Assembly: GCF_037975245.1 (NCBI RefSeq)
Contig: NC_092570.1
Location: 12,625,001 to 12,689,000 of the forward strand
Length of the DNA: 64,000 bases
Source: Apostichopus japonicus
Lineage: Eukaryota; Echinodermata; Holothuroidea; Aspidochirotida; Stichopodidae
Direction of reading: 5' to 3'
The first letter of the stretch is position 1. Every line of letters starts with the position of its first letter. Shown here piece after piece: positions 8,446 to 59,721 of the stretch. Below the pieces are notes generated by a model. The model was not told where the DNA came from and did not search any database. It saw only the letters and a program-made list of their open reading frames with translations. The position numbers and the translations under genes are program-made.

Positions 8446-11400
8446 ATGAAAATTTGTCTGACTTACGTGGTTTTTTCGCTCTGTCTTGCTGTTCATGTAT
8501 ATGGTTTCCCTGTTGGGCAGCCATCGAAGCAAGAGAACAGGGAGAATGGCCAACGGGTGGCAGGAATCGCCAAGAAAAATGACCATGCTGACTTACTGGT
8601 GAGTCTTTCACAGTTACATGGAACTTAGAGGCCAGTCTGTGTTCTGTTATCATCGGACCGAATTTCACTGATTTGTGAAATTGACAATAACTGTTAAATA
8701 TAAACTAAAGGTCAAATTGATTCAATTTACAGAATGAGATCATCTTTAAATAGGTACTTGTCGATCATATTTACTGCAACCGACAGATTTGTCAAACTTT
8801 AATAATACAGCCAATTAATGACCTTTCCCCAACTCTCTCTCTCTTTGTCTACCTTTGTAAATGAATAATTATTGTATTCATCCCGTCGCCAAGGATAATT
8901 AATGAATTCATTGGTTCTTACAATATTCCAATTGGTTTTAAATTTATTTTCGAGTTTAACTTAAAGTGTAATGATCTTACAGAATACATTATGTACATTG
9001 CTAAGTGTTCGGCAAACTTAAAGGAGACTTAGCAAGTGAAGAAAAATGAAACATCACTTGATGGTATCAACTTACATTGACAACAGTTCAATGTTTATGT
9101 CGCCATGGCAACATAGCAAACAGTATCTAAAACTTGACAATATTTGCTGACAAGTGTATTGTTAATTTTTATATTTTAATTAAACTTCGCCAGCAGTTTT
9201 CGATATCAAGCCATATCTTTTTCAATATATAGTTCGATAAAAGGCGCCAAGCCGTCATACTACGCTAACAAGAAATTTAGTTAAACGTCGGACAAATGTC
9301 CGTGATCAAGCAAGGATTGTAACGTAAAACGGTTAAATGAAAAGAGACATATATACTGAACAGATGCATCAGGCCCTTCCTTCATCCCCACCTTACGCCC
9401 CTCCCCACCCCCTCGCGAAACCTAGTTTATGTACCCATCGACTTGCTGAGCACGTCAGTATCACGTGAAGGTATATAAACATTGCTGTTACTATATATGA
9501 ACCAGATATTAATTAGCGTAAATATCTGACATTTCAAAATACTATTCATTTCGAACTATACGAGTAGCTTACAAACTTTCTTCGTCAATTGCGATCAGTT
9601 TACTTAAATAAGTTAGTAAAATATGCAAATATAACCTTTTGATGTAGTTTTATCAATTGAAGGTGAATTATGGAAAAGAATCAATTATTGTCTTATTATT
9701 GTCTTAATTAATCACATGATTCAAAGAGCAAGAAAAGAAAACCTTGTCGGTATTTCTGTTTTTATATGAGATGACATTTGTGAATTGAAGAACTTAATTC
9801 ATTGCTTTGATATATGGGAACTTCAAGTGATATCGAAGACGTAAACTAATGCAATCAACAAAGGAAGCTCAATGCAAAATTAAAATATAATGAATAAAAG
9901 AAAACATTAAATTAGTAGGGCAATAAGTAATGTAATTAGTAATGACACTCGAAGGAGCATCTTAGTAGAAAAGGGGAAGTTCTATATTTTATTATTATTA
10001 ATATTATGATCTATTTGTGATATAGTTTTACTACAATATTTTTTCGTTATTTCTTCTTCCACTGTTGGAAGCATCCCCAAACCTCCTTGTGATGTTGGTT
10101 TGTTGATTAGACCCACATCCCGTTGTGTAAGTAATGCATATAGTTCAAATGTGCAATGATACTTTTGGTTTAGTCCTTTAAACAAGCATGAGAATAAACA
10201 CACGCCCACAGACAAACACAAATAATAACAAAACCACCTAAATATATGCAGTGAATGAGTTATCCAGGGAAAGAGTTACCGTATTCTTATAGGACCAACC
10301 ACCCCATTCTAAGAAAATATAAAAGTAAGAGAAAGGCTATATTCCTTGGTTGTGTAACATTATCCATTGTCTGCACTTTTCTCTTAGGCTATGTTAACAG
10401 CATCGTTAATCGTTTAATAATATGATATCGAATGATGTAAAAGGTAATTTGGCAGTTTGTTGAGAATGTGGTATTAGTATAACATGTAAATGTAGGACAG
10501 GGTTTAAGTGTATACTTGGTAGTGTTATTGTTGTGGTGAATAGTGTGATACATACAAGTAACTAGTTTGTGATCCAGTGAAGTGAACCAATTAATGAAGA
10601 AATAATACCCTAGCTCCACTCTCAGTCTACGACAGTGATAACCATTCATAACAGTAATGTACAGACAATGAAAACTATTGTAATGTATTCTCTTCTCAAA
10701 TTGCTGTATTGATCATACATTATAATTTCTCTTTTTGATTTATAGAACCAACTACAAATGGCTTTAGCTGAACGGAAGAGCACCAAAAAAGGTTGGGGAT
10801 GGGGTGGTGGAGGAGGAGGTGGTGGAGGAGGTGGCGGTGGAGGTGGTGGAGGTGGTGGAGGAGGTGGTGGAGGTGGAGGAGGCGGTGGAGGAGGCGGTGG
10901 AGGAGGCGGTGGAGGAGGTGGTGGAGGCGGTGGAGGAGGTAATACAGGAGGCGGTGGAGGTGGTGGAGGTGGAGGAGGTGGTGGTAATACGGGAGGAGGT
11001 GGAGGTGGTGGAGGCGGTGGAGGAGGAGGTAATACAGGAGGCGGTGGTGGCGGTGGTGGTGGAGGAGGAGGTGGTGGTGGTGGAGGAGGAGGTAATACAG
11101 GAGGCGGTGGAGGTGGTGGCGGGGGAGGAGGGGGTAATACAGGAGGAGGTGGAGGAGGTGGTGGTGGTGGGGGAGGTGGTGGTGGTGGTGGTGGAGGAGG
11201 TAATACAGGGGGCGGTGGTGGAGGAGGAGGAGGCGGAGGTGGTGGAGGAGGAGGTAATACAGGAGGCGGTGGAGGAGGTGGTGGTGGCGGTGGTGGAGGT
11301 GGTGGAGGTGGTGGTAATACAGGAGGAGGTGGAGGTGGTGGAGGCGGGGGTGGAGGAGGTAATACAGGGGGAGGTGGAGGAGGTGGTGGTGGTGGAGGAG

Positions 11401-12008
11401 GTGGTGGTGGTGGAGGCGGTGGAGGAGGTAATACAGGGGGCGGTGGTGGAGGTGGAGGCGGAGGTGGTGGAGGAGGAGGTAATACAGGAGGCGGTGGAGG
11501 AGGTGGTGGTGGCGGTGGTGGAGGTGGTGGAGGTGGTGGCGGTGGAGGCGGTGGAGGTGGTGGTGGAGGAGGAGAAGGGGGTGGAGGAGGTGGACACGAT
11601 GACAGTAGTGATAGCAGCCATAGTCTCAGTGATAGTAGCCACAGTCACGGCAAGAGCAGCCACAGTCACGGCAAGAGCAGCCACAGTCACAGCAAGCACA
11701 GCCATGGTCACAGCAAGAGCAGCCATGGTCACAGCAAAGGCAGCCACAGTCACAGCAAGAGCAGCCACAGTCACAGCAAGCACAGCCACGGTCACAGCAA
11801 GAGCAGCCACAGTCACAGCAAAGGTGGTAAAAGTAAACACCATGGAAGCAGTAGCAGTGGTAGCAGAAGTAGGAGAGCTGATGATATGAGTAGTTTACAC
11901 GGTTGTCAAGGACACCGTCATATGGGAGATGGAGGACATATCAACAAGAAGATGACTCTAGCTGATGTACTTGAGAAGAGACAGCCTGTGCATGCACCTC
12001 AACTATGA
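8446..12008 (+). CDS. Gene A: secreted polyglycine / Ser-His-Lys repeat protein (two exons)
   Basis: I model join(8446..8598,10746..12008), 471 residues. Exon 1 (51 codons) encodes a signal peptide (Met-Lys, then hydrophobic LTYVVFSLCLAVHVYG) and a polar segment. It ends at a good donor, ctg|gtgagt, in phase 0. Exon 2 follows tttgatttatag| and opens in phase 0 with NQLQMALAERKSTKK and a GWGWG patch. Residues about 72-334 are almost pure glycine, cut into blocks by eleven Asn-Thr-Gly spacers. Then come nine Ser-His-Lys heptads and a non-repetitive tail of about 40 residues with one Cys, ending in LADVLEKRQPVHAPQL and TGA. The 1263 bp exon has no frame break. The composition resembles silk or adhesive matrix proteins. 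I recognise no named family, and function is inferred. Gene B lies downstream on the same strand. Confidence 0.88.
8599..10745 (+). other. Intron of gene A
   Basis: A 2147 bp intron bounded by gtgagt and tttatag. It is AT-rich. I see no repeat array, RNA gene or nested gene in it. Confidence 0.75.
10790..11594 (+). repeat. Polyglycine-coding tract of gene A
   Basis: GGN-codon tract with eleven aatac(a/g)gg spacers (Asn-Thr-Gly) at roughly 45-70 bp intervals. Glycine codons are a mixture of GGA, GGT and GGC with few GGG, so the DNA is not a simple microsatellite. Because GGN reversed gives NCC, the opposite strand is also open for hundreds of codons, which creates long spurious antisense frames. 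Confidence 0.93.
11634..11822 (+). repeat. 21 bp (heptad) Ser-His-Lys repeat, nine copies
   Basis: Nine consecutive 21 bp units with consensus agcagccacagtcacagcaa plus g, encoding [S/H/G]SH[S/G]H[S/G]K heptads. His at positions 3 and 5 alternates with small residues and one Lys closes each unit. Such His spacing is compatible with zinc, copper or nickel binding, which is not shown here. Confidence 0.93.
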
Positions 12009-12082
12009 AGTATTCTTTTTACCGTCCAGTCAAATTTGCATTAGTTAATTCACATAGAATTATTATCACTTTACAACACAAT

Positions 12083-12088
12083 AATAAA
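12083..12088 (+). terminator. Candidate polyadenylation signal of gene A
   Basis: AATAAA 75 bp after the TGA stop of gene A. Confidence 0.5.
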
Positions 12089-13901: not shown

Positions 13902-13994
13902 ATGAGATTTCGTCTCATTATTTTTTTCTTCGTTGCATATGCATCACTCACATCACGTCATTGGGCAAGCCAAGCCGAAGGTCATTCACATGAA
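13902..13994 (+). CDS. Orphan signal-peptide exon (31 codons)
   Basis: ATG opens a 93 bp exon encoding a basic Met-Arg-Phe-Arg start, a hydrophobic core (LIIFFFVAYASL) and a His/Ser-containing end (EGHSHE). It stops in phase 0 at a strong donor, gaa|gtaagt. Size, phase and character match the first exons of genes A to E. It lies 433 bp upstream of the gene B signal exon on the same strand, and I find no separate second exon for it. It may be an alternative first exon of gene B, spliced to 22702, or the remnant of a deleted paralogue. RNA evidence would settle which. Confidence 0.55.
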
Positions 13995-14426: not shown

Positions 14427-16465
14427 ATGAAGGGTACTTTGGTTTGCTGCGTGCTGTTCTTGGTCGTTTACAGCACCCACGGAGCACCCCTTGAGCGCAA
14501 TAAGAGGGATGATACTCTCATTGAGAAGGTAAATTTCTATATTAATGAACTACATGGGTTTCTAATAAAACATAAATTATATCATTAATGTTTGATGCAT
14601 TTTAGGTACTGTATAGTATAGTAAGGGAATACAAGTTTGTTGTACCATGGCCTGAAACCTAATTAGGTTTAACTGTACTTAGATGAGAGAGACAAAACCT
14701 CATTCTCATATGTTTCTTACAGTGATGCGTATATCTATGATAACTGCTCAAACAAATTCTAAATACTAAATCGTGATTCTCTCGTGAGTTCAAACCAAAG
14801 TTCAATACCCATATCTTTATCTAAAAGCTGTTATTTCATATTTTGTACAATTTGTGAAATCATATTATGTAGTGCAGGGGGCACAACCGATTGGTTGCCT
14901 TTAAAAGTTCATAATTTCAAGATGAAATAAACATTGGTGTTAATGATGTTTGTTAAACATTGGCCGAACATTTCGACAATTTCTTTGACAGCTATTGTGA
15001 AACAACACTGCTTTTTTTTACGAAAGTTAACATTGTTACTGATTAAGAACAACCGCTAAATTTTCAAGGAGTACTTGTTGTTGTGACGCTGAGAATTGTT
15101 CAAGTCTTCTGTCCTGTTTGTCGAGAACATAATGAGTCTGATGTCTCCTACATCATTGAATATTTAGCTATTTGAAGGTTTATTCTTTACTGCCGTAGTA
15201 GTTTCGGATATAACGCTTTGACGCGGAGAAGGCGTATAATCAAACGGTCATTCGATCGTGGGAGTATGTGTACATTAATATTAACTGCAAGGTCCTTCAT
15301 TAGCTTACTTAAATAATTTAACCAATAGCAAAGAGGAACCGATGAGATTCATACTATAAGTTGAAATTGTGGTTGTCATAAATGGCATAGGCACTCACGC
15401 GTTTTTTATGGGCAGATTCTTCATATAAGTGAAGAACGCCCCCCCCCCGATTGGTTTTACACAATAGCCAGCGTGACATCTCTGCCCTAGTTAAGAAGGT
15501 GGTTATAGCTGTGCTAACAGTTCATATTGTAGAACACTGTAGTTCTACCGACAGACTGTGTTAACATATAGGCATAATAACCAACATCATCGCCTAGTCA
15601 AATTCGTCATTTTTTAACCACTCGTTTCGGAAATTCGAACAAACTAGAACAAGGGCTATACATCAGCATCGCTCCCAAAATATGCTAGCAAGTCAAATAT
15701 TGGTCACTTGTGACGAGTAGTTTAGCATAATAATCAATTAATGTTTTGTTCATTGTGACACGTCATTATACAACTGAACACAATCTGTCAATAATTTTGA
15801 AGGTCGGAGGAGCCTCCAGGAAAGCATCCACTTTTGAGATATTTTCGAAATTTAACGATCTTAAGATATAGTGGTCATCACTAATTGCCTGCAGCATCAC
15901 GTTGATTACTAGATATTTTTACTTTTGTATACTAGCACCCCCTCCCCTCCGTCCCATCCACCCCTTCTATTGCTGCCAACATTTAAAGTATTCGCTCTAA
16001 GAGCTCGCCGTGGGTACATTATTTAATGATAATCTGAGATTATTGATCTTTCGTTGCAATTTTCAAAGAGATTATCCATTACTTATTTCCATGACTCTAA
16101 GATGGTGCAGTATTTCGAGTTAAAAGTTTAATACACAACTATATGTTTAATGTTGGTAGTCTGTACAGAGAGCAACCAGCAACTTCCTTTACCGTAATTA
16201 GATTCCACATTATAACATTACAAAGTACAGCTGTAAGGTACCAACTATAGCTTTACAATATTTGCTCTTGTCGTATAAAACCATGACACCAACATACCAC
16301 GCATGCGCATAGCCAATGACTCATGAATGATGTTATGCTTAGATGCCGTGACTAGACTCATGCATAGTATACCTATGTTAATAGGGGCACAGTTCACCCT
16401 AAAATAAGCTCCTAAAGAAATGTCACAAATGATCGATATATATATATATATACATAATTATATAT

Positions 16466-22500: not shown

Positions 22501-23535
22501 AAATGTAAACGTCAGATCTACTTCATAGTTCCTACGTACTATAATTTCATACGAAACAATGACCACAATACCCAAAAAAGCTAATCACAAACGAACGGCA
22601 AAATAGCAGCTTTCTCATACGACATAATTTGGTTCTAAAATGAATCACAGGTGAAAATAACCTAGTTTGTTATTGATAACTATTCAATATATTTTTGACA
22701 GGCTCTATCGGTAGTGGATGACAAGGAAATCGACAATGGCAAAGTAGAGGAAGACAAAAAGTTCTGGAACTTCTGGAATCACTACGGTGGAGGAGGCGGT
22801 GGAGGTGGAGGAGGTGGAGGAGGCGGAGGAGGCGGAGGAGGCGGAGGAGGCGGTGGAGGCGGAGGAGGCGGAGGAGGCGGTGGAGGCGGAGGAGGCGGTG
22901 GAGGTGGTGGCGGAAACAACAACGGTGGAGGCGGAGGTGGAGGCGGAGGCGGCGGTGGTGGCGGTGGTGGCGGTGGTGGCGGCGGTGGCGGCGGTGGAGG
23001 TGGAGGTGGAGGTGGAGGCGGAGGCGGAGGTGGAGGAAACAACGGCGGTGGAGGTGGAGGCGGAGGCGGAGGTGGAGGAAACAACGGCGGTGGGGGTGGA
23101 GGTGGAGGCGGAGGTGGAGGAAACACCGGTGGTGGTGGTGGTGGCGGAGGAGGAGGTGGAGGCGGGGGTGGAGGAAACAACGACGGTGGAGGTGGCGGAG
23201 GAGGTGGAGGCGGAGGTGGAGGAAACACCGGTGGTGGTGGTGGCGGAGGAGGAGGAGGAGGAGGTGGAGGCGGAGGCGGAGGCGGAGGTGGAGGAAACAA
23301 CGGCGGTGGAGGTGGAGGTGGAGGTGGAGGCGGAGGTGGAGGAAACAACGGTGGTGGTGGTGGCGGAGGAGGTGGAGGCGGAGGTGGAGGAAACACCGGT
23401 GGTGGTGGTGGAGGTGGAGGTGGGGGAGGCGGTGGTGGTGGTGGTGGAGGCGGCGGTGGAGGTGGTGGAGGAGGAGGAAACAACGGAGGTTGCACAGGAA
23501 ATGGTGGAGGTGGTGGAGGTGGCGGCGGCGGTGGC

Positions 23536-23567
<32 letters not shown>

Positions 23568-23934
23568 TGGTGGTGGTGGTGGCGGCGGTGGTGGTGGTGG
23601 TGGTGGAAATGGAGGTGGGGATGTTGGATGGGGTGGCGGACGAAAGCCAATTAAGTTTCGTCCTCCGTTCAATTGGATTGGTCGGAGCAGTAGCAGCAGT
23701 GACAGCAGCAGTCGTAGTAGCAGCCACAGTAAGCATAGCAAAAGCAGAAAGAGCAGTAAGAGTAAGAGTAGAAAAGGACACAAACACAGCCATAGCCATA
23801 GCAAACATAGTGGAAGCAAGAGCAAGCATGGGAAGCGAAAACATCGCCATGGTAACCGAGGTTCATGGAGTCGCGAAGAAGTTCTCCTTGATACTTTGAT
23901 GACGAAAAAGATCGCTGTTCAGAATGAAGTTTAA
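14427..23934 (+). CDS. Gene B: secreted polyglycine / Ser-Lys-His protein (two exons)
   Basis: I model join(14427..14528,22702..23934), 444 residues. Exon 1 (34 codons) encodes a signal peptide (LVCCVLFLVVYSTHG, then APL and a basic-acidic stretch) and ends aag|gtaaat in phase 0. Exon 2 follows atttttgacag| in phase 0 with a charged segment and an aromatic patch FWNFWNHY. Residues about 63-337 are polyglycine broken by NN, NNN, NT and NND spacers and one short Cys-containing NNGGCTGN. A GWGGGRKPIKFRPPFNW patch and a Ser/Lys/His-rich cationic region of about 60 residues follow. The tail includes REEVLLDTLMTKKIAVQ, similar in pattern to the gene A tail. Exon 2 has no ATG near its start, so an upstream exon is required. 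The 8.2 kb intron makes the exon pairing an inference, and the exon at 13902 is the alternative. Confidence 0.75.
14529..16435 (+). other. Gene B intron, 5' part
   Basis: AT-rich intron sequence without supported features, apart from a short C-run at 15438-15447 and a pyrimidine-rich patch near 15940-15970. Confidence 0.5.
16436..16507. repeat. (TA)n microsatellite
   Basis: About 70 bp of TA dinucleotides with a few interruptions (tacataatta, taaata), inside the gene B intron. Confidence 0.95.
16675..16762. repeat. Short tandem repeat, tcatatgtttt / tcatatagtct
   Basis: Alternating 10-11 bp units based on tcatatgttt, tcatatagtc and tcatataatc. Confidence 0.8.
17540..18460. repeat. Degenerate ~220-240 bp tandem repeat, about four copies
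   Basis: Two landmarks recur in order. One is gacgaacgaa..ttttataaaggag (near 17570, 17790, 18210). The other is gagactataa..aggtctttataagtagctctaaac (near 17705, 17925, 18090, 18345). Copies differ by many substitutions and indels, so the array is old. It lies inside the gene B intron. Confidence 0.75.
18461..20416 (+). other. Gene B intron, middle part
   Basis: No supported gene. C/G homopolymer runs lie at 18478-18490, 19851-19860 and 20191-20202. Short open frames at 19267-20269 on both strands show no domain or splice support. A duplicated cccaccagatccccag motif occurs at 19517 and 19570. Confidence 0.45.
20417..20899. mobile_element. Foldback MITE-like element, ~483 bp
   Basis: The ends form an imperfect terminal inverted repeat of about 60 bp: the left side contains ggcaagccatgtgggacaaa and the right side reads ggcaagccatatgggacaaa on the other strand, continuing through the nearly palindromic ataatatatccgcgtat. 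The interior holds five 22 bp units (20672-20766, core ttcgaattaatacg). No open frame for a transposase is present and I could not fix a target duplication. The superfamily is unassigned. Confidence 0.8.
20672..20766. repeat. 22 bp palindromic repeat, five copies
   Basis: Units of atattcgaattaatacgtgt plus at. Each contains the self-complementary ttcgaa and attaat cores. It forms the centre of the foldback element. Confidence 0.88.
21761..21903 (+). mobile_element. Dispersed repeat with hairpin gatcctgctaggatc, copy 1
   Basis: Shares about 140 bp with copies at 35596-35736 (+) and 53112-53215 (-), including the hairpin gatcctgctaggatc followed by gaaacgtcagg, then ctctagtggataagcag and a T-rich end. 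The layout (TTGAAGA, a 6 bp stem with a 3 nt loop, GAAA) resembles a hammerhead ribozyme core with one position changed. This would fit a Penelope-like retroelement terminus, an assignment I infer only. Confidence 0.6.
22786..23615 (+). repeat. Polyglycine-coding tract of gene B
   Basis: GGN codons with ggaaacaac (Gly-Asn-Asn) and ggaaacacc (Gly-Asn-Thr) spacers every 40-70 bp. GGA, GGT and GGC are mixed. A (ggtggc)n run at 23520-23600 is the most homogeneous part. Long minus-strand Pro/His/Ala-rich frames here are shadows. Confidence 0.93.
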
Positions 23935-31077: not shown

Positions 31078-32211
31078 TAATTATTATAAAAAGATGCAAA
31101 CTAAGGTCTATGATTTTCACTCAATATTCGAAGTATTTTGTGTTCTTGTTCACTCTTTTGCTGAAGATTCACGTATGTAACATAAATTACCGTGTAAATA
31201 CATTACTCCAAAAAATATCCATTAAATACTATTTGAGATCTGTGTTGTTTGGGAGATTATGAAATTTACAGCTGCATTTCACGTTTGGTTTGTAACTGTG
31301 GTTGTAGTCGGTGATGTCGAATGGCAATTTGGATCTGAAACCTTTCCTATCCTTACTCTTTGTTATTTACCTTTATAAATTTAAGATGAATTCTTCGCAA
31401 TGTTGACACTAAAACAGGTGCCATCTTTAGGTCATGTTTAAAGCTTCAATATATTAAATAAAGTTAAAGCGTTACAGTTATTGAGCACAAACACTAGCAA
31501 CCCTTATACTAACTATGTTTGATTTATTTATGATTGCTTGTAGCGGGCGAAGTCACAATTTAATTGAACCTAATTCTCTTCTAACAGGTTTAACCAGATA
31601 TAAATACTTCTGTTCCGTCTTCCATAATTTTATGACATCCATCATCGCCAAACACGTGATGACACCCTTTGTCTGGAAAATGGAAAATATTTTCAAATTA
31701 ACATAACAAAAGATATGGTCTATACGATTAAACTACGGCGAACCTTAAAATGACAAGCAGGGTTTTATTCCTCTTCAAGAAATGCAATAACTGATAGAGA
31801 ATTTTAAGACAATGTCACTATTCAAAATGACATATATCTCGCCAATTGTACAGTATACAGATTAGTCGCTCAAGTATATCAAGATTATAAACAAACTAAA
31901 TTAAATTTATCCAGAATCTACTAGGTCCAACCTATTAATGTGAAATGTTCGAGTGAATGAGCAGTTACATGCCACATAACAATGAAAAAGTAAAGATAGC
32001 CATAATAAACAATAACAATTACAGATGTTTGTCGTAGTCAAAGAAAATTAATTTTAAATGAAACTAATTCTATAAGAAGGATAAAACGGTGTGTGATTTC
32101 ATCTCTTCTTAGTTTAGTGAGAATTCATCAGAGCTAAAATACTATCCAAATTATCACTCTCTAACTCAATAAGTGACTTTTGCTCTTATTCAATTAAGTT
32201 TAGGTCACGCA
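30569..32211. other. Intergenic with (TA)n tract
   Basis: Apart from the (TA)n array at 30988-31071 I see no supported feature. A 63-codon plus frame at 31515 lacks support. Confidence 0.45.
30988..31071. repeat. (TA)n microsatellite
   Basis: About 84 bp of uninterrupted TA dinucleotide. The Tyr-Ile frame across it is spurious. Confidence 0.97.
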
Positions 32212-32217
32212 TTTATT
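32212..32217 (-). terminator. Candidate polyadenylation signal of gene E
   Basis: AATAAA on the minus strand, about 60 bp after the in-frame TAG at 32277-32279. It supports reading gene E as a complete short gene ending in exon 2. Confidence 0.5.
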
Positions 32218-32276
32218 ACAATACCGATATACCGATACCGAATTCCTAAATCTGTGAAGAAAATGTAGAATTAAAA

Positions 32277-35084
32277 CTAACCTCCAATAAATCCATCTTC
32301 CTTCAGATTCTCTACCTTACTTTCTCTAACAAGGGTGTCTAATCCCCTCAAACCGAGAGACAACTCAGGTTCTTGCTTCACAGACGATTCTTGCCTCTGT
32401 TTAAATATGGCAGGCAAAGCGTCAAACAGCCTCTGTATTATCAGTTCATCCCTCTTAGCACGGACCTATACGGCAATGAAATAGCTTAGTAAAGATAGTA
32501 TACTAGCATAGTAACATATATAGCTAATTACATCATACTGTAATGTTCCTTATCCTAGTCGGTATGTTCTGTATAGGTGTTTACATATGTAAATTACTGA
32601 CATGACCACGTCTAACACATTCTTTGATTGATCCATGTCAGCTCCCTGCTCGGATAAGTTTTAAGTAAGTTACATTCAACTGAGCTAGCTTCAAAAGGAT
32701 TTTTTGGTTAGTTCGTGCCATGTTATGCACAAGAATATGATTTCTATGGGTGTCTTTGAAGATTTGTCGAAAAGTGTTCGATACAATGAACCACCAAACA
32801 TATCATTATGGTATTAGAGGCCTCGGCCTTGACTGGATTAAAAGCTATCTTTCGCACAGAGTACAATTTACAACTTTTAACAATGTAGATTCCGAGACGA
32901 CGAATTCTGTTGGTGTTCTATACAAGGATCTATTTTAGGGTCGTTATACTAGTTATCATTTATGTCGATGATAAACATGAAGTATCAGAGAAATGTTCCA
33001 CTATATCTTGTTTGCTTATGATACTAATATTTTCTTCACTGGCCATAATGTTATTGTATTGAAAGACACAATTTGTCAGGAACCTACACAATTATATGCT
33101 TTTTTCTCTGCCGATAAACTTCCTCTTAATGTGTATTAGGACTAATTATATTGTTTTAACAATAATGATAGCAACATTGATAACGTGACATTTGATACAT
33201 CAATGGATGGAAAATATATTAAAAGAGTAGATTATACAACGATTAATCTTGTGTAGTAATTCATTGATGTTAGTTTTCTTTTTTCTTTTGGGGAAAACTA
33301 TTTGTAAAAAGTTTGTTTAATATGAGTTAAAAGTCTATTTTGTTATAACTGTTTATAGGACAACATGCACTGGAAAATCCTACATACGTATTTTTATACT
33401 AATATTGGCTAACTCTTGTCATTCCCTTGGTCCAATGAGGCCAAAATGCAAAATACAGAGTGTTTTAAGCTTTAAGAAGTCACAAGGCAGAAAACCGGTA
33501 GGCCTATATGGTTTGCCGGGGGGGGGGGGGGGGAGGGAATTCCTATAAGAAATGCCGTCTTCTTACTTTTTCCACTTGCCACTTGCATTATCGAAATTTC
33601 AAATTGGCGTTTTATATCGAAATTTCAAATCGCTCCGAGAAATTTGAACTTTTCAATTTCGATTTTATTTTTATCTTTAAATTTGGCTATTTTCTTACAA
33701 TTTTGACTTTATGCTAAGTTGTCACCTGTTTTTTTTGGCCACATTACGACCATTTGGTATCAAAATTTCAAGCATTTGCTCACTATATTATCTTCCCTTG
33801 GAACTTTGTTGATGACAGTAAATCGAATTTAGGAACAAGTCGAAGTTTGGACATTTCATTTCGAACTTTCGACTGTGAAAATGATGACTATTTTACCTCA
33901 ACATTATGACCCGTCAATTTTGTCATCATAAACAGAGAGGGAGGGGGGGGGGGGGAGCTGACAACCTCCGTTAATGTTTGGGGGTATTGCCAAGAAGAAA
34001 TTTCTTCTAGTGAGGACATTTGATTTGCATAATGAATATTCAAATTGCCTAAAATGCATACACCTATAGTTATTTGGACACAATTGTAAATAGTCATCAA
34101 GTGAATACGTTGAAGCAGTGCATCTGCATACGAAAGTGTTTGTGTATCATTTGAAAGTTTTCGAAATTCGTTCTTACATAGCTTGGCCTGTTTGGTCAAC
34201 GGTTGGAAAACTCGTACCCGATCTGTAAAGGACACCCTGCGACACTTAGACTACATTCAAAACCTTCGTAATATACCACCAAACATAATAAAGGTATACG
34301 GTACTGTGTACAAATGTGTATATATGTGTACATATGTGCAAATATGTGTACATATGTGCAAATATGTGTACATATGTGCAAATATGTGTACATATGTGTA
34401 CAAATGTGTATATATGTGTAAATGTGTGTACATATTTGTACATATGTGTACATATATGTACACATTATGTACACATATGTACACACATTTACACATATAT
34501 ACACATATATACACATATGTACACATATGTACACATATTTGCACATATGTACACATATTTGCACATATGTACACAATGGTCCTAATTCTCGCGGCTTCAA
34601 TGTAGCTATATGTGCATGGATGACCGTAGTATAAACTTAGGATCTGTCATGTTATGCTAGTCATGACAGATTACAACGTCCGTCTACTGGCAGCTAGCTA
34701 TGTATTATAGTTTTAGATGATTAATTATTCATTAAGAAATTGAATTGAAATTAAGGTCATCAGTATTGTCTTCAAATATGCTAGAAATACCCAAAACAGA
34801 AATCAGCGAGGCACGGTCAAGCTTTAACACCTGTTCTAATCCCTTGGCGAATTTCTAGATTTGTTCACCTCGATATTTGTCAACTCTCGGAGGACTTTTG
34901 ACATGGAGAGAGTTCTATAGCTTTGGAACTTGTAAATTCACCACTGCTAGGTATTGCCGTGTTTTAGCAAAGAGGAACCTTGTAATTTCATCCTTACCTG
35001 GATTCCACCATCTTCTTCCGATATTGGAGAACATTGGGTGACGACAAATCCAAGAAGAAATACGTAAATTAAGCGGACGTCCAT
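32277..35084 (-). CDS. Gene E: short secreted protein related to the N-terminal part of genes C and D (two exons)
   Basis: I model complement(join(32277..32465,34998..35084)), 91 residues. Exon 1 (29 codons) encodes a signal peptide (VRLIYVFLLGFVVTQCS) and an acidic end, with a consensus donor cag|gtaagg in phase 0. Exon 2 follows gccgtatag| and opens VRAKRDELIIQRLFDAL, like the starts of gene C exon 2 (VLKERQERLVAKL) and gene D exon 2 (VSVDRRAEDVITSLL). It reads through GFIGG to TAG. The end is ambiguous: GGAG|GTTAGT is also a possible phase-1 donor at the same relative place as the gene D exon 2 donor, which would remove this stop. I find no glycine-rich exon downstream, and AATAAA follows, so I favour the short form. 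There is one Cys and dibasic KR. A processed peptide precursor cannot be excluded. Confidence 0.6.
32745..33185 (+). mobile_element. LINE reverse-transcriptase relic (Jockey/CR1-type)
   Basis: A plus-strand fragment encodes VFDTMNHQTYHYGIRGLGL followed by WIKSYLSHRVQFTTFNNVDS, the usual RT segment between the KAFDTVNH and GVPQGS motifs. It then has an eroded YQGSILG, and, after frameshifts, FAYDTNIFFTGHN (the F(A/V)DD box, here with Tyr in place of the first Asp) and ADKLPLNV. It sits in the gene E intron on the opposite strand and is non-functional. Confidence 0.75.
34306..34575. repeat. 12-mer array that inverts at its centre (foldback)
   Basis: The left part is tandem gtgtacatatgtgcaaatat-type units. 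From about 34458 the same units run as reverse complement (tacacatatgtacacatatt). The strand would fold into a hairpin with arms of more than 100 bp. Its Met-Tyr-Thr-Tyr/Cys-Val-His frames on both strands are artefacts. It lies in the gene E intron. Confidence 0.93.
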
Positions 35085-35528: not shown

Positions 35529-35752
35529 GATTTTCTTTTATGTGTAAAAGTAAGTTGGCCTGACGTTTCGATCCTAGCAGTATCTTCTTCTTGTTCCTTC
35601 TGTTACTGTTACTTGTCATTTAGCCTTTGAAGAAGATCCTGCTAGGATCTAAACGTCAGGCAAACTTACTTTTACACATTCTCCTACACAGGCTCTCTAG
35701 TGGATAAGCAGTTCACTAACAGTTTTATTTGATTTTGATTTTCTTTTATGTG
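35529..35752. mobile_element. 192 bp insertion with 16 bp target duplication (hairpin repeat, copy 2)
   Basis: Identical 16 bp direct repeats gattttcttttatgtg flank the insert (35529-35544 and 35737-35752). Inside, a partial inverted copy (35545-35590, ending in the hairpin gatcctagcagta) is joined head to head to a fuller direct copy (35596-35736) of the dispersed family seen at 21761 and 53112. A variable-length target duplication plus partial inverted duplication is typical of Penelope-like elements. That class is inferred. Confidence 0.7.
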
Positions 35753-39214
<3,462 letters not shown>

Positions 39215-39533
39215 GAGAGGCGGAGAGGCGGAGATGCGGAGAGGCGGAGAGGTGGATAGGTGGAGAGGCAGAGAGGCCCAGAGGCAGAGAGGCAGAGAGG
39301 CCCAGAGGCAGAGAGGCAGAGAGGCAGAGGGGCAGAGAGGCAGAGAGGCAGAGAGGCCCAGAGGCAGAGAAACAGATGCGGAGAGGTGGAGGGGCAGAGA
39401 GGCGGAGAGGCGGAGAGGCAGAGAGGCAGAGAGGCCCAGAGGCAGAGAGGCAGAGAGGCCCAGAGGCAGAGAGGCCCAGAGGCAGAGAGGCAGAGAGGCA
39501 GAGAGGCAGAGAGGCAGAGAGGCAGAGAGGCAG
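39215..39533. repeat. 9 bp satellite ggcagagag, about 35 copies
   Basis: Tandem nonamer with variants ggcggagag and ggcccagag that recur in blocks. All three frames are open for Arg/Glu/Gly or Leu/Ser/Pro repeats. These are artefacts. Confidence 0.95.
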
Positions 39534-42943: not shown

Positions 42944-45900
42944 TTATTGTGTACTCTTATCATTTGACAATACATTTCTTTCCGCTCTCCTTCGAAGAAC
43001 TGACTGACGACTTATGAAGCTATTCCAGTGGATTTCAGCTTCCCTTTCAACATGATTTCCTCGTTCGTGAATCTTAAATAGATCACATCCATGACCGGGA
43101 TATTTATTGCCAGGCTCAACTGTTGTCTGTTTCAAAGGAAGAGTAAATATTGGCGGGAATGTCGATGCTTTTGGTGTTGGATTCTTAATATCACTACCAC
43201 CGTCCGAAGTTGCTACTGTTGTCTCAAGTACGTTTGTGATTTGCATCTTCGTGGTGGGAACTGTAGTCGGCAACTTCGTCGTCGGCACGGTTGTGGTGGG
43301 TACTGTTGTCGGCACCTTCGTCGTCGGCACGGTTGTAGTCGGTACTGTAGTCGGCAACTTCGTCGTCGGCACGGTTGTAGTCGGTACTGTAGTCGGTACC
43401 TTCGTCGTCGGAACGGTTGTGGTGGGTACTGTAGTCGGTACCTTCGTCGTTTGCACGGTTGTGGTGGGAACTGTAGTCGGCAACTTCGTCGTCGGCACGG
43501 TTGTGGTGGGTACTGTTGTCGGCACCTTCGTCGTCGGCACGGTTGTGGTCGGTACTGTAGTCGGTACCTTCGTCGTTTGCACGGTTGTAGTCGGTACTGT
43601 AGTCGGCAACTTCGTCGTCGGCACGGTTGTGGTGGGTACTGTTGTCGGCACCTTCGTCGTCGGCACGGTTGTGGTCGGTACTGTAGTCGGCACCTTCGTC
43701 GTCGGCGGCACGGTTGTAGTCGGTACTGTAGTCGGTACCTTCGTCGTCGGAACGGTTGTGGTGGGTACTGTAGTCGGTACCTTCGTCGTTTGCACGGTTG
43801 TGATGGGAACTGTAGTCGGCAACTTCGTCGTCGGCACGGTTGTGGTCGGTACTGTTGTCGGCACCTTCGTCGTCGGCACGGTTGTGGTCGGTACTGTAGT
43901 CGGCACCTTCGTCGTCGGCGGCACGGTTGTAGTCGGTACTGTAGTCGGTACCTTCGTCGTCGGCACGATTGTGGTGGGTACTGTAGTCGGAACCTTCGTC
44001 GTCGGCACGGTTGTGGTCGGTACTGTAGTCGGCACCTTCGTCGTCGGCACGGTTGTGGTGGGTACTGTAGTGGCTACTTTAGTCGTTGGAGCACCTCCTC
44101 CACCTCCTCCTCCTCCACCTCCTCCTCCACCTCCTCCACCTCCTCCACCTCCTCCTCCTCCTCCTCCTCCACCTCCTCCTCCACCTCCTCCTCCACCTCC
44201 TCCACCTCCTCCACCTCCTCCACCTCCACCTCCTCCACCACCACCTCCTCCTCCAATTTCTTCACCTCCACCTCCTCCTCCACCACCACCTCCTCCTCCA
44301 CCACCTCCTCCTCCTCCACCACCTCCTCCACCTCCTCCTCCTCCACCTCCTCCTCCTCCTCCACCTCCTCCACCTCCACCACCTCCACCACCTCCTCCTC
44401 CGCCTCCACCTCCACCTCCCCCTCCACCTCCTCCGCCTCCCCAGCTTGTGCTACCGCTTCCACTTTCTTTGCTACTCTTTCCTCCGCTATGGTCATGGCT
44501 CTTCCCATGACTGTGACTCTTGCTCCCACTTTCCTTGCTGCCTTTACTGCCGCTATGGTCATGGCTCTTCCCATGGCTGTGACTCTTGCTCCCACTTTCC
44601 TTGCTGCCTTTACTGCCGCTATGGTCATGGCTCTTCCCATGACTGTGACTCTTGCTCCCACTTTCCTTGCTGCCTTTACTGCCGCTATGGTCATGGCTCT
44701 TTCCATGGCTGTGACTCTTGCTCCCACTTTCCTTGCTGCCTTTACTGCCGCTATGGTCATGGCTCTTCCCATGGCTGTGACTCTTGCTACCACTTTTCTT
44801 GCTACTCTTGCCACCGCTCTTTCCTTTACTGCTCTTTCCACCGCTCTTTCCTTTGCTCTTTCCACCGCTCTTTCCTTTACTGCTCTTTCCACCGCTCTTT
44901 CCTTTACTGCTCTTTCCACCGCTCTTTCCTTTGCTCTTTCCACCGCTCTTTCCTTTGCTCTTTCCACCGCTCTTTCCTTTGCTCTTTTTACCACTTTTGC
45001 CTCCACTTTTACTTCCGCTGCCGCTCTTACTTTTTCCTCTCTTGAAGGCATCTAAATCTAACAGTAAAAAAGATGATCGAAATTGTTATAATAGCGAACT
45101 CTCCATGTTTAATTTGGTTCGAAGTCTTAAAAGGTGCTTACGTACAGTACACTTTCGTATCTATATAGAGATTGAATACTTAATACATATATCTTGCAAC
45201 GCAGTCATATGCGTATTAATTCAATGTAATACCAGTATTAATACTTGTCAGTATGATTGACTGATTAAATGCGCGCATATATTCAATTTAATACGTGTAT
45301 GTTATAATTTATTTATACGATCATAATTATAAACAATGTGATCTTAGTGCTTGGTTATGAATTGTTTAGGAGTATGTATTCAATTAATTCCGCGTATATA
45401 TTCGCATATATATAAGTGTTTAATAACTTGTCACAAGACCCTCCATATAGATCGCCAATTCATTGTATTAACCGATTGACGACGACACATTGTATCAAAT
45501 GGCTTGACAATAATGCGATGCTTTTTACTTTCCTATGAAAGTAGCTCGATTGACTAGAACGAACTGTAGTATGTACCAACCTGCTTCACTCTCCACAGCT
45601 TCTAATCCACTGTAGCCCCGTTTGCTGTCCTCTAATGCCGCAAGAAGACTTGTGATGACATCTTCTGCCCTTCTGTCGACGCTTACCTGAGAGAAGAAGA
45701 AGAAACAACAAATGCATGCAGGTTTCCTAATGCATGAGGTACAGAGGTTTCCTAATGCATGCAGTATAGAGGTTTTATAATGCATGAGGTATAGAGGTTT
45801 TATAATGCATGAGGTACAGAGGTTTCCTAATGCATGAGGTATATATAGGTTTCCTAATGCATGAGGTATATATAGGTTTCCTAATGCATGAGGTACAGAG

Positions 45901-47498
45901 GTTTCCTAATGCATGGGTTATAGAGGTTTCCTAAAACATGATGTATATATAGGTTTCCTAATGCATGGGATATAGAGGTTTATGAGGTCGAACGTTTCAA
46001 GTTGAAGTTTTTTTTTTCAAGGGCGCAACGAATGGAGGAGTCCGGTGTTTTTAGCGGGAAACTTCGCTACAGCTTTACTTAAAAAATCAACCCATCAACT
46101 CCAACAATCGTATACTTGGATTTGAGCAGTGATTTCCCGTTCGTATGTATTATTCTATTCTCAATGTGTGAAGAGCAAAAAAAAAAAGGGGGGTGGGAAG
46201 AAAAGGCAGAATAGGGGGGAAAAAAGTACTAATAATGTTTCTATAGTATATCCTAGTTCAAAATATTCAAGTTTAAAATATTTAAATTTGTGAAAGGCTA
46301 CAATCGATGATGACGTCAGTTCCTCTGTGCATATCTAAGTTTAATCCATTGATTCCTAAATTTGAATAATTCTAGCAAGACATGAACCATTGGATGACTT
46401 AAAGTATAGCATTTTATTTGTAATACATTGTACACAGTTTATTGAAGATCGTAAAATTCTTGGTGGTCCTATTGAATGCCTTGTGATTTGCCTGAGGAAC
46501 TGAGCCAATGGTCTGTGTTAGACTATGTATTCCAGCCACTTTAGTCGATAAGCCACAGAAATGTCATAAAGTTGATGATAGTTCAAAAGTTAAAAGTGAT
46601 AGAAAATAAAACATATAACAGTGCTTTTTAACCGTCTACAGAAGATCAAAGTAAATTTAATGCCTATCGAATCCCACAAGTGGTAAGTCAACTCTGTTAC
46701 CCCATGGGGCAATCTTGGATGTTATGTCGAATCGTTAAGTCTGTTTAATTACCAAATCCCACCAGAGGTAAGTCAAATATGTTACCCATGAAGCAATCTT
46801 GGATATTATATCCCATCGTTAGGTCTCGTTAAGCTTTATCATGAAATCCCACCAGGGGTAAGTCAACTATGTTACCCCATGGGGCAATCTTGGATGTTAT
46901 GAAGCAATCTTGCATGATATGAATCAATCTTGGATGTTATATCCCATCGTTAGGTCCCTTTTATCACGAATCAGGATATATTAACCATATGTTAACACAT
47001 TTTCCGTTTCGTTTTGTTTCTTTTCTTTGCTCTATTTTTTTCTTCACAGCTACATGACATATTTAATGTTTGAACTTGACTGTACTGAGGGTTTATAATT
47101 ATATGAAACTGTGGAGCATCCGAAAACTTTCAAAGTTTCTACATATTTCATTTATGAAGGCTTTAGTGATATGTTAAGATGGGGTCAATAGGTCACATAA
47201 GTCTCACATAAGTCTCACATAAGTCTCACTTAAAACATGGATCATGGTACGATGGGTAGTATTCACTCTGATGTTCCACAACCTATCCCTATCTCCTCCC
47301 TCTCCCCTCCATCTCCCCTCCCTCTCCCTCCCTCTTCCCTCCTCCTCCTCATCCGCCTCCTCCTACAAACCCAATCCCTTTGTAATATCTTACCTCGTGG
47401 TCGGTTTCTTCATTGTCTTCCTCGTCTTGAGCCAGCGGCGCGGCCGTAGCGGCCAATAGCAGACAGGTCAATAATAATAATATCCGTAGCGATTCCAT
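42944..47498 (-). CDS. Gene D: secreted chimeric Ser-His-Lys / polyglycine / mucin-like protein (three exons)
   Basis: I model complement(join(42944..45057,45581..45686,47394..47498)), 774 residues. Exon 1 (35 codons) encodes a signal peptide (LRILLLLTCLLLAATA, then APL) and an acidic tail, with donor gag|gtaaga in phase 0. Exon 2, after cttcttctctcag|, encodes VSVDRRAEDVITSLLAALED.. and ends gcag|gttggt in phase 1. Exon 3 opens in phase 1 (DLDAFKRGKSKSG) and runs 703 codons without a break: Lys/Ser/Gly repeats (~71-151), five 22-residue Ser-His-Asp-Lys repeats (~152-261), polyglycine with one EEIG insert (~262-394), twenty 14-residue Pro-Thr-Thr-Val repeats (~395-677), and a non-repetitive basic C-terminus with one Cys. 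The Thr/Pro block is a likely O-glycosylation domain. The gttggt donor is weak and two acceptors (45057 or 45051) are possible. A Glu-rich overlapping frame with ATG at 45050 is rejected. Confidence 0.75.
43240..44089 (-). repeat. 42 bp repeat coding Pro-Thr-Thr-Val units, about 20 copies
   Basis: Each 42 bp unit encodes 14 residues, consensus PTTKVPTTVPTTTV, with K/L and P/Q variants that recur every two to four copies (higher-order duplication). Two copies carry an extra Pro codon without loss of frame. Threonine makes up over 40% of residues, as in mucin domains. Confidence 0.93.
44090..44450 (-). repeat. Polyglycine-coding tract of gene D
   Basis: GGA/GGT-rich codons on the minus strand, from SWGGGG to GGGAPTTK, with one EEIG interruption near 44255. 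It is in frame with both neighbouring repeat domains, so all three lie in one exon. Confidence 0.9.
44488..44817 (-). repeat. 66 bp repeat coding Ser-His-Asp-Lys units, five copies
   Basis: Exact 66 bp spacing (plus-strand atggtcatgg at 44488, 44554, 44620, 44686, 44752). Each unit encodes 22 residues built from SGSKGSKESGSK and SHSHGKSHDH. Copies differ at few bases, which suggests recent duplication or gene conversion. Confidence 0.95.
44818..45030 (-). repeat. Lys/Ser/Gly repeat region of gene D
   Basis: Alternating 15 and 21 bp modules encode KSGGKSKGK-type units directly after the exon 3 start. This gives a strongly cationic, low-complexity segment. Plus-strand Ala-Leu-Ser-Phe frames are shadows. 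Confidence 0.85.
45205..45420. repeat. Possible relative of the 20417 foldback element
   Basis: Several attcaatttaatacgtgta and ttaattccgcgtatatattc strings resemble the interior of the 20417-20899 element, but no clear terminal inverted repeat is visible. It spans gene D intron 2. Confidence 0.35.
45711..45985. repeat. 25 bp minisatellite, about 11 copies
   Basis: Unit ggtttcctaatgcatgaggt plus acaga, with variants (tatag, tatatata, ttttataatgcatg). It begins about 25 bp upstream of the gene D exon 2 acceptor, inside intron 1. Confidence 0.93.
46668..46970. repeat. ~87 bp tandem repeat, three copies
   Basis: Copies start aatcccaccag(g/a)ggtaagtc at about 46668, 46755 and 46842, and contain ggggcaatcttggatgttat. 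The last copy has an internal partial triplication of caatcttg(g/c)atg. It lies in gene D intron 1. Confidence 0.88.
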
Positions 47499-52879: not shown

Positions 52880-53111
52880 CGATTCCGCAATGTTTCACCT
52901 TTCGATATTGCAATACTTTTCAAGTAATATTAAGAAGCTTCCTTTATTGTAAATGTGATCCGTGAATTTCATTTCAGCGATTTCGAAAAACGGTTTATTA
53001 AATGTGGTTTAAGTGTATTTTGTGCAATGCTATGTACGTACCAACTGGCCAACTAGGCATTGTATGATGTACGTTCGCGATGTGTACGTAATATATAAAA
53101 GGATAAATCAA

Positions 53112-53245
53112 ATAAAATAAAACTGTTAGCAAACTGCTTATCCACTAGAGCCTGTGTAAGAGAAAGTGTAAAAGTAAGTTGGCCTGACGTTTCGATCCTA
53201 GCAGGATTTTCTTCAAAAGCCAAGCCATTGAAGAAGATACTATAT
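53112..53245 (-). mobile_element. Dispersed hairpin repeat, copy 3
   Basis: A minus-strand copy of the family at 21761. It contains ctgcttatccactagag and the hairpin with cgatcctagcagga, followed head to head by a short opposite-strand stub (ccattgaagaagata). The junction between inverted copies resembles the one at 35590. Confidence 0.6.
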
Positions 53246-53473: not shown

Positions 53474-56400
53474 CTAGCGACCAAACCAATGTCGCCATCC
53501 ACCACCTCCCCCTCCACCTCCTCCTCCACCTCCTCCTCCTCCACCTCCTCCTCCACCTCCTCCTCCTCCTCCACCTCCTCCTCCTCCTCCTCCACCTCCG
53601 CCTCCGCCTCCTCCTCCTCCTCCACCTCCTCCTCCTCCACCTCCACCTCCACCGCCTCCACCACCACGTTCTATCACCAGTTCCTTTTTGTCACAATCTT
53701 TTGGATTTTTGCCACCTCCTCCAGCACCCCCTCCACCGTTCCCTCCTCCTCCACCACCACCGCCTCCACCATTGTTACCGCCTCCACCTCCTCCGCCTCC
53801 TCCTTTTCCGCCATTGTTTCCACCTCCACCGCCCCCTCCACCGCCACCGCCTTTCCCGCCATTGTTACCGCCTCCACCGCCCCCTCCACCGCCTCCAACT
53901 TTTCCGCCATTGTTTCCACCTCCACCACCACCGCCTCCGCCTCCTCCTCTTCCACCATTGTTTCCACCTCCACCGCCCCCTCCACCGCCACCGCCTTTCC
54001 CGCCATTGTTACCGCCTCCACCTCCACCTCCACCGCCTCCAACTTTTCCGCCATTGTTTCCACCTCCACCACCACCGCCTCCGCCTCCTCCTCTTCCACC
54101 ATTGTTTCCACCTCCACCGCCCCCTCCACCGCCACCACCTTTCCCGCCATTGTTACCGCCTCCACCTCCACCTCCACCGCCTCCAACTTTTCCGCCATTG
54201 TTTCCACCTCCACCACCACCGCCTCCGCCTCCTCCTCTTCCACCATTGTTTCCACCTCCACCGCCTCCTCCACCGCCACCCGCCTTTCCCGCCATTGTTA
54301 CCGCCTCCACCTCCACCTCCACCTCCACCGCCTCCAACTTTTCCGCCATTGTTTCCACCTCCACCTCCACCGCCTCCGCCTCCTCCTTTGTTACCTCCAT
54401 TGTTACCTCCTCCACCGCCACCTCCACCACCGTTATTACCGCCGCCGCCTCCTCCTCCACCACCTCCTCCTTTGTTACCACCATTGTTACCTCCTCCCCC
54501 ACCTCCACCTCCTCCATTGTTGCCTCCTCCTCCACCTCCTCCTCCACCTCCTTTGTTCCCTCCATTGTTACCCCCCTCCACCGCCGCCACCGCCGCCATT
54601 GTTACCTCCTCCTCCACCACCACCACCTCCTCCTCCCCCGCCTCCGTTATTACCACCGCCTCCTCCTCCACCACCTCCTCCTGTGTTACCACCGTTGTTA
54701 CCTCCTCCTCCACCACCGCCTCCTCCCCCGCCTCCGTTATTACCTCCACCTCCTCCGCCACCCCATCCTCCCCAACCCCCAGTCCAATCTTTCCAATTAT
54801 TCCAACCACCACCGCCACCTCCACCGCCGTTGTTGCCGCCACCGCCTCCGCCTCCTCCGCCTCCTCCTCCTCCTCCGCCGCCACCTCCTCCTCCTCCTCC
54901 TCCTCCACCGCCTCCGTTGTTGCCTCCTTTATTTCCGCATTTGTTGCATTTACCGCGTTCATCAAGATCTTCAGTGAGCTTTGCAACCAGTCTTTCCTGC
55001 CTCTCCTTAAGGACCTGATGAGTGAAAAGAAAGTATGATTTTCAATACGAGGCACTCAGTTAATGTTTTAGATTTGGTTATCATACCATTGTTCATTAAA
55101 AAATAAAATTATGAGCCCTCAACATCATTGTCGCTGGTCGATGGATGTCAATGGATCGATGGATCAAAATTAAACATTTTCCGTCCAAACAAACGTAAAA
55201 AATTGCCAGTAATTCCGATACAGAATGTGTGTACACTTTCAAAACTGTGAAATTTACATTTTTTTCACTGGTGTGCTTTAACAAGTTACAAGTAGATCAA
55301 AGCAAACGGTTGCATTCGAAACTTATTTCCCTCGCCATCTAGTACGTTGGATTAAACACCGTTTGTTACATGTGTGGTCCTACAGACCCCGTCAGTCACA
55401 CAATTAGTGTTTACTATAAACATTTATGAAATAAATGAGTTCAAATTGTCTCTGCAAATGACTGGTGTGTCTGATTATAGAACTAGCTAGTTTATTAAGT
55501 TGATTCTAGTCACAACATTCTCTCTATGGATAGTGACCTCATTACTTTTTGAATCGCGTACAATGTACAAATTAGTCTGACGACTGAATGAATTATTGCA
55601 TATTCATGCCTCTTTCGTCACTATAACAGAGCAACGTGTTAACGTTAAACATTAATATGATACAAGTATGAAATATTTAAAAAATGTCGATAAAATTATG
55701 CTAGGTCTACGTTGGCAGAATCGCAAATTAAAATTAGAACTCGAGTGACTTGTTCATTTTTATCCAAAAGTCAGAAAGTTAATCACTAAAGAGGGAATTA
55801 TTTTATGCATCACTTTAATCTTGGGGGGGGGGGGGAGGTGGGTGTATCCTAAACTGTTAATACGGTATTGCTCATCTCTGCTATACATATGCCTTAACCG
55901 TGCTGGCATACAGTGTAGCCTATATATACATTCTGACGTAATGCGACCAAAGCTATCTCGGGAAACCATTTTGGATGTGAGTTGCTGGTTCTCTTATTTT
56001 CAATTTCCATTTCAATGTAAATTTCAAGGTTTTTTGGGGGGAGCTGTACTTCAACGAATTAGGAAATATCTCCAAATTGGGCTTCAACATATATGAACTT
56101 ACTCTGTTTTAAATTGAACGATATCATTATGGAATTGACAAGTTCATAATTCCATATTAATGAGTCAAGACACGGGGGAATTATTTATTAGACATATTTG
56201 ACAGGAGGTGTACATGAGATGTAGCACCGACTCTAATTCACTTTTCACTTCTTAGATTGAAACTGCAGTCAAAAACAAATCTTCATCTAACACCTAGACC
56301 CTATATGCAGTTAACCTACTTTATTCCCTTCTAACATGACTTAAAATAAAGTCCTATTTTTTTGTTCTTAACCACGTGGACATTACTTATGTTGGATGGG

Positions 56401-59400: not shown

Positions 59401-59721
59401 CAATCGCTTTGTAAGTAGTGACGAGATCATAAATAATTATTATTGAAAAATAACAAAAATAACAAAAAATTAACGTCAATTATCTTGTATTTAAATTTTG
59501 TCGCCCAGACACAATTTGTCTTGACCATGAAATGAGTATAAAATAGATGAAATTTATGCGAAGATTGATTCTAAACCTTTAGTTTATAATGAGAGAATAG
59601 AATGGCCCACCTCGTCTTTCTCGGTTTCATCGTCCAATTCCCTCTTAGCCAATGGTGCAGAGAGGGAGACGGTGACGAACACCACCAGAAGGGCCAGCAC
59701 CAATACAAGTAGACGGGCCAT
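53474..59721 (-). CDS. Gene C: secreted polyglycine / Asn-Gly-Lys protein, interrupted by two 1 bp insertions (two exons)
   Basis: Exons are complement(59611..59721) and complement(53474..55014). Exon 1 (37 codons) starts at MARLLVLVLALLVVF, has an SAPL junction and an acidic end, and leaves by a weak donor gag|gtgggc in phase 0. Exon 2 follows cttttcactcatcag| with VLKERQERLVAKL, a CNKC pair, then polyglycine. A patch WNNWKDWTGGWGGW lies at ~54817-54762, a long NNGG[K/R] array follows, then a spacer KNPKDCDKKELVIER (53711-53667), a further glycine run and the end WRHWFGR. Two extra C residues break the frame: in the C6 run 54571-54576 (giving TAA at 54570-54568) and near 54279-54281. With both discounted the protein would have about 549 residues. 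Base-calling errors in homopolymers or real pseudogenisation are both possible. An upstream in-frame ATG at 59838 lacks signal character. Confidence 0.7.
53760..54330 (-). repeat. 144 bp higher-order repeat in gene C
   Basis: Three polyglycine modules ending NNGGKV, NNGGK and NNGGR together form a 144 bp unit. The plus-strand marker ctttcccgcc occurs at 53851, 53995, 54139 and 54284: spacings of 144, 144 and 145. The odd base is the second frameshift. Confidence 0.92.
54568..54576 (-). other. Frameshift and in-frame stop in gene C
   Basis: A run of six C on the plus strand (54571-54576) shifts the glycine frame. The next codon on the minus strand becomes TAA instead of GGT-AAC. Five C would restore the Gly-Asn-Asn pattern seen elsewhere. 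Translation as written would end near residue 186. Confidence 0.75.
55015..59610 (-). other. Intron of gene C
   Basis: 4.6 kb, AT-rich, with G-runs at 55825-55836 and 58800-58810. A 14 bp inverted repeat ttcttaaccacgtg / catgtggttaagaa at 56365-56420 could form a hairpin. No gene seen in it. Confidence 0.6.

Follow-up and report, generated by a model that had tools for sequence, protein, structure and literature searches.

A cluster of genes for glycine-rich proteins with signal-peptide-like exons in Apostichopus japonicus: candidate precursors of an extracellular material

Introduction

What kind of product could come from genes in which a short signal-peptide-like exon precedes long stretches of glycine codons? 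The question is raised by 64,000 nucleotides of the sea cucumber Apostichopus japonicus (assembly GCF_037975245.1, contig NC_092570.1, positions 12,625,001 to 12,689,000; hereafter the window), in which a first-pass annotation, made from the letters alone, had placed five genes, A(+), B(+), E(-), D(-) and C(-), together with an orphan exon. We find that this polyglycine gene cluster is real at the sequence level: low-complexity glycine domains and signal-peptide-like exons occur together in clustered genes. The combination suggests an extracellular material as the most economical reading. More specifically, and with about even confidence, we propose that the cluster, whose three open members carry long, near-pure glycine, may encode secretory precursors of an extracellular, hydrated, cohesive and possibly adhesive matrix.

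Gene models and layout of the cluster

Both strands of the 64 kb were scanned, with no coordinates supplied, for an ATG followed by a hydrophobic core and a phase-0 donor. Six places emerged. Three are the first exons already known for A, E and C; the others are a place at 14427 that we take as the first exon of B, an orphan exon at 13902, and a place at 31110 that is probably a chance match. The first exon of D was missed because its donor (GAG/GTGGGC) scored under the cut. The signal-peptide-like exons attributed earlier to every gene are hence borne out by the scan, with a phase-0 donor, in A, B, C and E, while that of D was judged by eye.

Genes A, B and C form open spliced models of 471, 444 and 774 amino acids (aa), with GT..AG at the junctions and a first exon ending in phase 0 (Table 1). 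A and B have a two-exon plan; in a correction to the first-pass annotation, C and E both need a third exon, reached across a phase-1 second intron. We infer that exon 1 of B joins its second exon across an intron of 8.2 kb, and the orphan exon could act as an alternative first exon for this gene. All 117 aa of the three-exon model of E agree (100% identity) with an NCBI entry named 'uncharacterized protein [Apostichopus japonicus]', which confirms the window as nuclear DNA of this species and provides a check on the kind of exon reading applied to the neighbours of E. The earlier count of four genes with glycine domains is right, E being the one that has none.

Table 1. Positions of gene parts within the window (a slash marks the exon/intron border in donor sites)
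Feature	Position	Strand	Content
Gene A, exon 1	8446..8598	+	Signal peptide and pro-segment; donor CTG/GTGAGT, phase 0
Gene A, exon 2	10746..12008	+	Helix-like segment, GWGWG, glycine array, Ser/His/Lys repeats, Cys-containing tail, stop
Gene A, glycine array	10806..11594	+	Approximate limits, from tandem-repeat scan
Gene A, Ser/His/Lys repeat	11613..11821	+	21 bp x 10
Orphan exon	13902..13994	+	Signal-peptide-like, 31 aa; donor GAA/GTAAGT, phase 0; 0.5 kb upstream of gene B exon 1
Gene B, exon 1	14427..14528	+	Signal peptide, APLERNKRDD (RxKR site)
Gene B, exon 2	22702..23934	+	Acidic helix-like segment, FWNFWNHY, glycine array, Ser/His/Lys/Arg tail
Gene B, glycine array	22786-23618	+	
Gene E	31590..35084	-	Exons 35084-34998, 32465-32282 and 31672-31590; 117 aa; model read from splice signals; no glycine array
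Gene C, exon 3	42944..45057	-	Lys/Ser/Gly and Ser/His/Lys repeats, Gly runs, mucin-like PTT block, Cys-containing tail
Gene C, mucin-like PTT block	43251..44086	-	42 bp x 19.8 copies
Gene C, glycine array	44092-44440	-	
Gene C, exon 2	45581..45686	-	Basic site and helix-like segment; phase-1 donor
Gene C, exon 1	47394..47498	-	Signal peptide, APLAQDEED
Gene D, exon 2	53474..55014	-	Helix-like segment, glycine array with Asn-Asn spacers in three frames, Trp patches
Gene D, exon 1	59611..59721	-	Signal peptide, APLAKRELDDE; donor GAG/GTGGGC

Two kinds of candidate signal were set aside in building these models. A signal-like open reading frame (ORF) in the D intron near 58002 was dropped, since it is preceded at a distance of just some 15 bases by a TATA-like stretch and the coordinates listed for it translate off frame. 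Upstream of the first exons there are TATA-like motifs, which were not used because such motifs are common in AT-rich DNA and that of C sits just 36 bases from its ATG.

The introns and flanks of the genes also hold repeats. An element of about 50 bp at 46492-46543 matches 56626-56679 on the opposite strand (81%), and 56621-56662 matches 58078-58120 (86%), the latter two copies both lying inside the D intron before TATA-like stretches. Copies of a dispersed repeat, some 115-155 bp long and 89-95% alike, occur at 21752-21906 (B intron), 35540-35749 (upstream of E) and 53095-53223 (downstream of D).

Glycine as the probable reading-frame product

The arrays of the three open genes are long and nearly pure. 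That of A has 264 codons, 241 of them for Gly, with a longest pure run of 46 and eleven Asn-Thr spacers; that of B has 274 codons (249 Gly, longest pure run 43) with Asn-Asn and Asn-Thr spacers; and that of C has 116 codons (113 Gly), in which runs of 59 and 54 are separated by a single Glu-Glu-Ile spacer. Over the whole protein, Gly makes up 55.6% of A and 59.7% of B. The Asn-based spacers described at first are thus present in A, B and D but not in C, whose array also falls slightly under the 130-430 residues originally given for these domains.

We argue that glycine is the reading-frame product of these arrays, from the codon-position pattern, the stops in the six frames and the lack of codon homopolymers. 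Across the 603 Gly codons of A (241), B (249) and C (113), all four third bases are used while positions 1 and 2 are kept as GG, single departures at these two positions being limited to one codon in A, two in B and two in C; codons differing at both positions (the Asn and Thr spacers and the one Ile of C) are excluded from this count. Two other arrays of the window served as controls. In the one at 7372-7703, presumed to be non-coding, all five period positions vary (0.60-0.67 modal), and in the one at 39191-39533, taken as non-coding, five of the eight period positions do so. As a separate observation, GGG is nearly absent from the array Gly codons (12/603).

In A, B and C, five of the six frames meet stops in the last exon and the Gly frame alone does not, although the exons themselves had been delimited by that frame. 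Openness by itself proves little here, GGN repeats being free of stops in many frames. An antisense poly-Pro reading, which would likewise leave third positions free, was rejected, as no antisense frame has fewer than two stops in the second exon of A or B, or fewer than four in the third exon of C. The spacer variants, compared between the Gly frame and the antisense strand, fail to tell the two readings apart in A and B; those of D differ mildly, one Gly-frame string accounting for 24/29 against 18/29 in antisense.

The arrays carry no signature of growth by single codons. One identical Gly codon is repeated 6-7 times at most, and codon identity at lag 1 (0.39, 0.29, 0.44 and 0.23 in A, B, C and the last piece of D) lies close to or below the expected values (0.39, 0.34, 0.42 and 0.34), all lag statistics counting every Gly codon of the exon, for D of its last piece. 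The best lags are 75 codons in A (0.55) and 48 codons in D (0.70), which indicates that those arrays grew by large units.

Other protein parts and relatedness of the genes

Besides glycine, the predicted proteins share a common plan. After the signal peptide, whose end was placed by eye, the chain starts with APL in B, C and D, SPI in E and FPV in A, and downstream of this xP[LIV] start come a basic site and then a short helix-like stretch. The site is of the furin type (RxKR) in B (RNKR) and E (RAKR), and only dibasic in A, C and D (KK in A). Ser/His/Lys repeats adjoin the arrays of A, B and C, and aromatic patches occur in A (GWGWG), B (FWNFWNHY) and D (WNNWKDW and WRHWFGR). Net charge (K+R-D-E) is +14 in A, +17 in B and +48 in C; no N-glycosylation sequon is present in these three proteins, and neither poly-Ala nor collagen triplets were seen in them. 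Cys-containing tails are found in E, C and A, that of E being short with two Cys. An AlphaFold model of E from the single sequence was uninformative (mean predicted local distance difference test score, pLDDT, 41.7), and no claim made here rests on it.

The five genes had been called paralogous. Their architecture agrees with this; residue-level support is moderate, with three of ten N-terminal pairs beating shuffled sequences at p<=0.05 (A-C 0.012, B-E 0.024, C-D 0.003). Among the tails, one of six pairs did so (A-C 0.031). Tests anchored on the intron gave p=0.004 for D-E, 0.29 for C-D, 0.49 for C-E and 0.031 for the three together, and a test of all five genes with the basic site as anchor gave p=0.083; the anchors were picked after looking, and none of the p values above carries a multiple-test correction. 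We consider A-E likely to be paralogous, mainly by their shared architecture, clustering and xP[LIV] start.

Database and literature searches

The first-pass annotation had stated that the proteins fit no known family exactly, which holds for Pfam, NCBIfam and the PDB in the tests as made. No Pfam match above cut-off, and no silk domain, was found in eight N- and C-terminal pieces, from which the arrays were mostly excluded; the glycine rich protein family PF07172 reached 21.0 bits with the N-terminal piece of D, below its cut-off of 30. NCBIfam returned no match for E, the A exons or the B exons. In the PDB, E matched one 112-aa chain (A339; E-value 0.1, best domain 0.32), which we judged to be chance. 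Exon 2 of B matched seven sequences up to an E-value of 10, the best being two 'Tet4 Variant' chains (5.4e-6) over residues 24-54, at the start of the Gly array; these we judge, without having looked at the alignment, to be compositional, and they were not retained. In the rest of the window, Pfam gave three weak matches, none above cut-off, for ten other ORFs, and Rfam and tRNA scans returned nothing. None of the titles and abstract openings among the papers listed by the literature searches names these genes. An A. japonicus 'glycine-rich protein' with a collagen triple-helix domain (PIK60693.1) has been mentioned in the literature (PMC7599334).

Proposed function and alternatives

The exons, the open models, the Gly frame, the arrays free of single-codon slippage and the fused blocks are read from the DNA itself, and every step beyond them is inferred. 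The genes would be transcribed and translated, the proteins would enter the secretory pathway, some members may be cleaved at their basic sites (RNKR in B, RAKR in E), and the products would be deposited outside cells. There, the glycine chains might associate by backbone hydrogen bonds, as polyglycine-I sheets or in polyglycine-II helix packing, with the Asn-Thr and Asn-Asn spacers interrupting the runs. The aromatic patches and the His/Lys/Ser blocks may form cross-links or act as binding sites for sulphated glycans or metal; water may be retained by the mucin block of C. Together, spacers, aromatic patches, cationic blocks and mucin block could set solubility and cross-linking, and the product would be a cohesive extracellular matrix, mucus or adhesive. 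Published work describes disease polyglycine (polyG) as forming branched fibrils of about 5 nm packed into ribbons (PMC13383697), and glycine-rich polyproline-II (PPII) bundles in diverse proteins (PMC8409303); these support only that such chains can assemble.

Several observations weigh against a matrix function. In a set of 5.8 billion proteins, searched with E, residues 1-72 of A and residues 1-82 of C, E found itself alone at an E-value of 1 or below (among five candidates), while the N-termini of A and C, which shared words with 18 and 517 candidates respectively, gave nothing at an E-value of 10 or below among proteins in the length window of the search. Hence no known protein qualifies as a relative, nor is A or C known to have been annotated. 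Residue similarity among A-E is weak. The second exon of D is not a single open frame: the reading frame breaks near 54577 and again near 54279, leaving the Gly pieces in three successive frames, and the frame from exon 1 as sequenced stops after about 185 aa. Finally, three arrays show raised short lags. Lag 2 scores best in B (0.47 against an expectation of 0.34) and, at 0.45, also exceeds the 0.34 expected in D; in C the best is lag 6 (0.59, with 0.42 expected). This indicates that short-unit expansion took part there.

These short lags would fit expansion by repeat instability, and so lend some weight to a possible, if rather unlikely, alternative in which a small secreted peptide like E, made up of signal peptide, basic site, short helix and Cys tail, is the functional unit, while the glycine arrays ride along as tolerated passengers of little function. 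E, the sole member identical to an annotated protein, lacks an array altogether, a full RxKR site is found in E and B, Cys-containing tails recur in E, C and A (the A-C tail pair being the one that beats shuffling), and D bears its array in three frames. Against this reading, A, B and C show no signature of single-codon slippage, Gly positions 1 and 2 kept and third bases varying in three separate genes, and low-complexity sequence as most of the protein. Some of the same features, namely a signal peptide with RNKR or RAKR in B and E and the short two-Cys tail of E, would also suit precursors of neuropeptide- or antimicrobial-like molecules freed at the basic sites; this we hold improbable, given that the eight pieces lack a Pfam match above cut-off, that A, B and C are mostly low-complexity and that A, C and D have dibasic sites only. 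Equally doubtful is a reading of the arrays as GGN repeats that are in decay or were never translated, with signal-peptide ORFs next to them by chance: D does have two frame breaks and openness is weak proof in such repeats, but just six signal-exon candidates exist on both strands, three of them the proposed A, C and E exons, the A, B and C frames stay open through unique tails, the codon-position pattern holds, and E is an annotated protein.

If the products do form an extracellular matrix, their closest functional parallels may be the Cuvierian-organ outer-layer proteins (COOLPs) of Holothuria leucospilota and the Pinctada shell-framework protein MSI60. The Stichopodidae, the family of A. 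japonicus, are not known to have Cuvierian organs. The COOLPs (Hl-25083, Hl-25084, Hl-25088 and Hl-30757), described as mainly intramolecular beta-sheet, are likewise holothurian, repetitive and material-forming, and have neither a functional domain nor orthologues among other marine species (PMC12472103); they are, however, proteins of the Cuvierian tubules, A. japonicus is a stichopodid, and the comparison is by description only. MSI60 combines poly-Gly with poly-Ala blocks, and MSI31 and the shematrins have silk- or fibroin-like domains (PMC3091754). These shell proteins are matrix proteins, and MSI60 shares poly-Gly with the genes described here; in contrast to MSI60, A, B and C are without poly-Ala and have Gly runs of 43-59, Asn spacers (A and B) and Ser/His/Lys blocks, and they come from another phylum, a distinction drawn by description.

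Spider silks and the flanks of the mussel byssus preCols are also Gly-rich extracellular fibre proteins. Silk arrays grow by large units, and preCol ends are His-rich. From these, A, B and C differ in having neither poly-Ala nor collagen triplets, and no silk domain by Pfam. The preCol flanking domains have been described as resembling silk and elastin (PMC6477608). A further comparison is with the Gly-rich PPII or polyglycine-II bundle proteins (snow flea antifreeze protein, the phage S16-type adhesin tip, Obg), in which packed glycine chains are hydrogen-bonded through the backbone (PMC8409303); that the proteins described here share this packing is only a guess, and whereas those proteins have short runs in compact folds (six and seven consecutive Gly in the phage tip), runs here reach 59. 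The pathogenic polyG proteins of NOTCH2NLC GGC expansion disease also have long homopolymeric glycine chains (PMC13383697), but these accumulate inside cells and arise from GGC repeats, whereas the genes here have signal peptides and mixed Gly codons.

We raise, tentatively and as an unlikely but attractive possibility, that these genes specify a natural extracellular material based on near-pure polyglycine. This would represent a new structural principle in an animal secretion: backbone hydrogen bonds of runs of up to 59 Gly would replace the poly-Ala or beta-crystallites of silks, Asn-Thr and Asn-Asn spacers would interrupt the runs, cationic Ser/His/Lys and mucin blocks would flank them, and the secretory pathway would handle chains of a kind that aggregate intracellularly in human polyG disease. 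Work on that disease regards long pure polyglycine as a biophysical outlier (PMC13383697), and Gly runs are short in the folded proteins described (PMC8409303). If the proposal is true, the locus would offer a testable natural system for making, solubilising and assembling polyglycine chains, as well as a candidate ingredient of some secretion of the sea cucumber; the empty searches with A and C may mean that current protein sets miss such genes.

Other repeats in the window

Two further tandem arrays lie upstream of the cluster: a perfect GGGAG array at 5926-6182 (51.4 copies, 100%) and a 34-bp satellite at 4019-4830 (23.1 copies, 86% matches).

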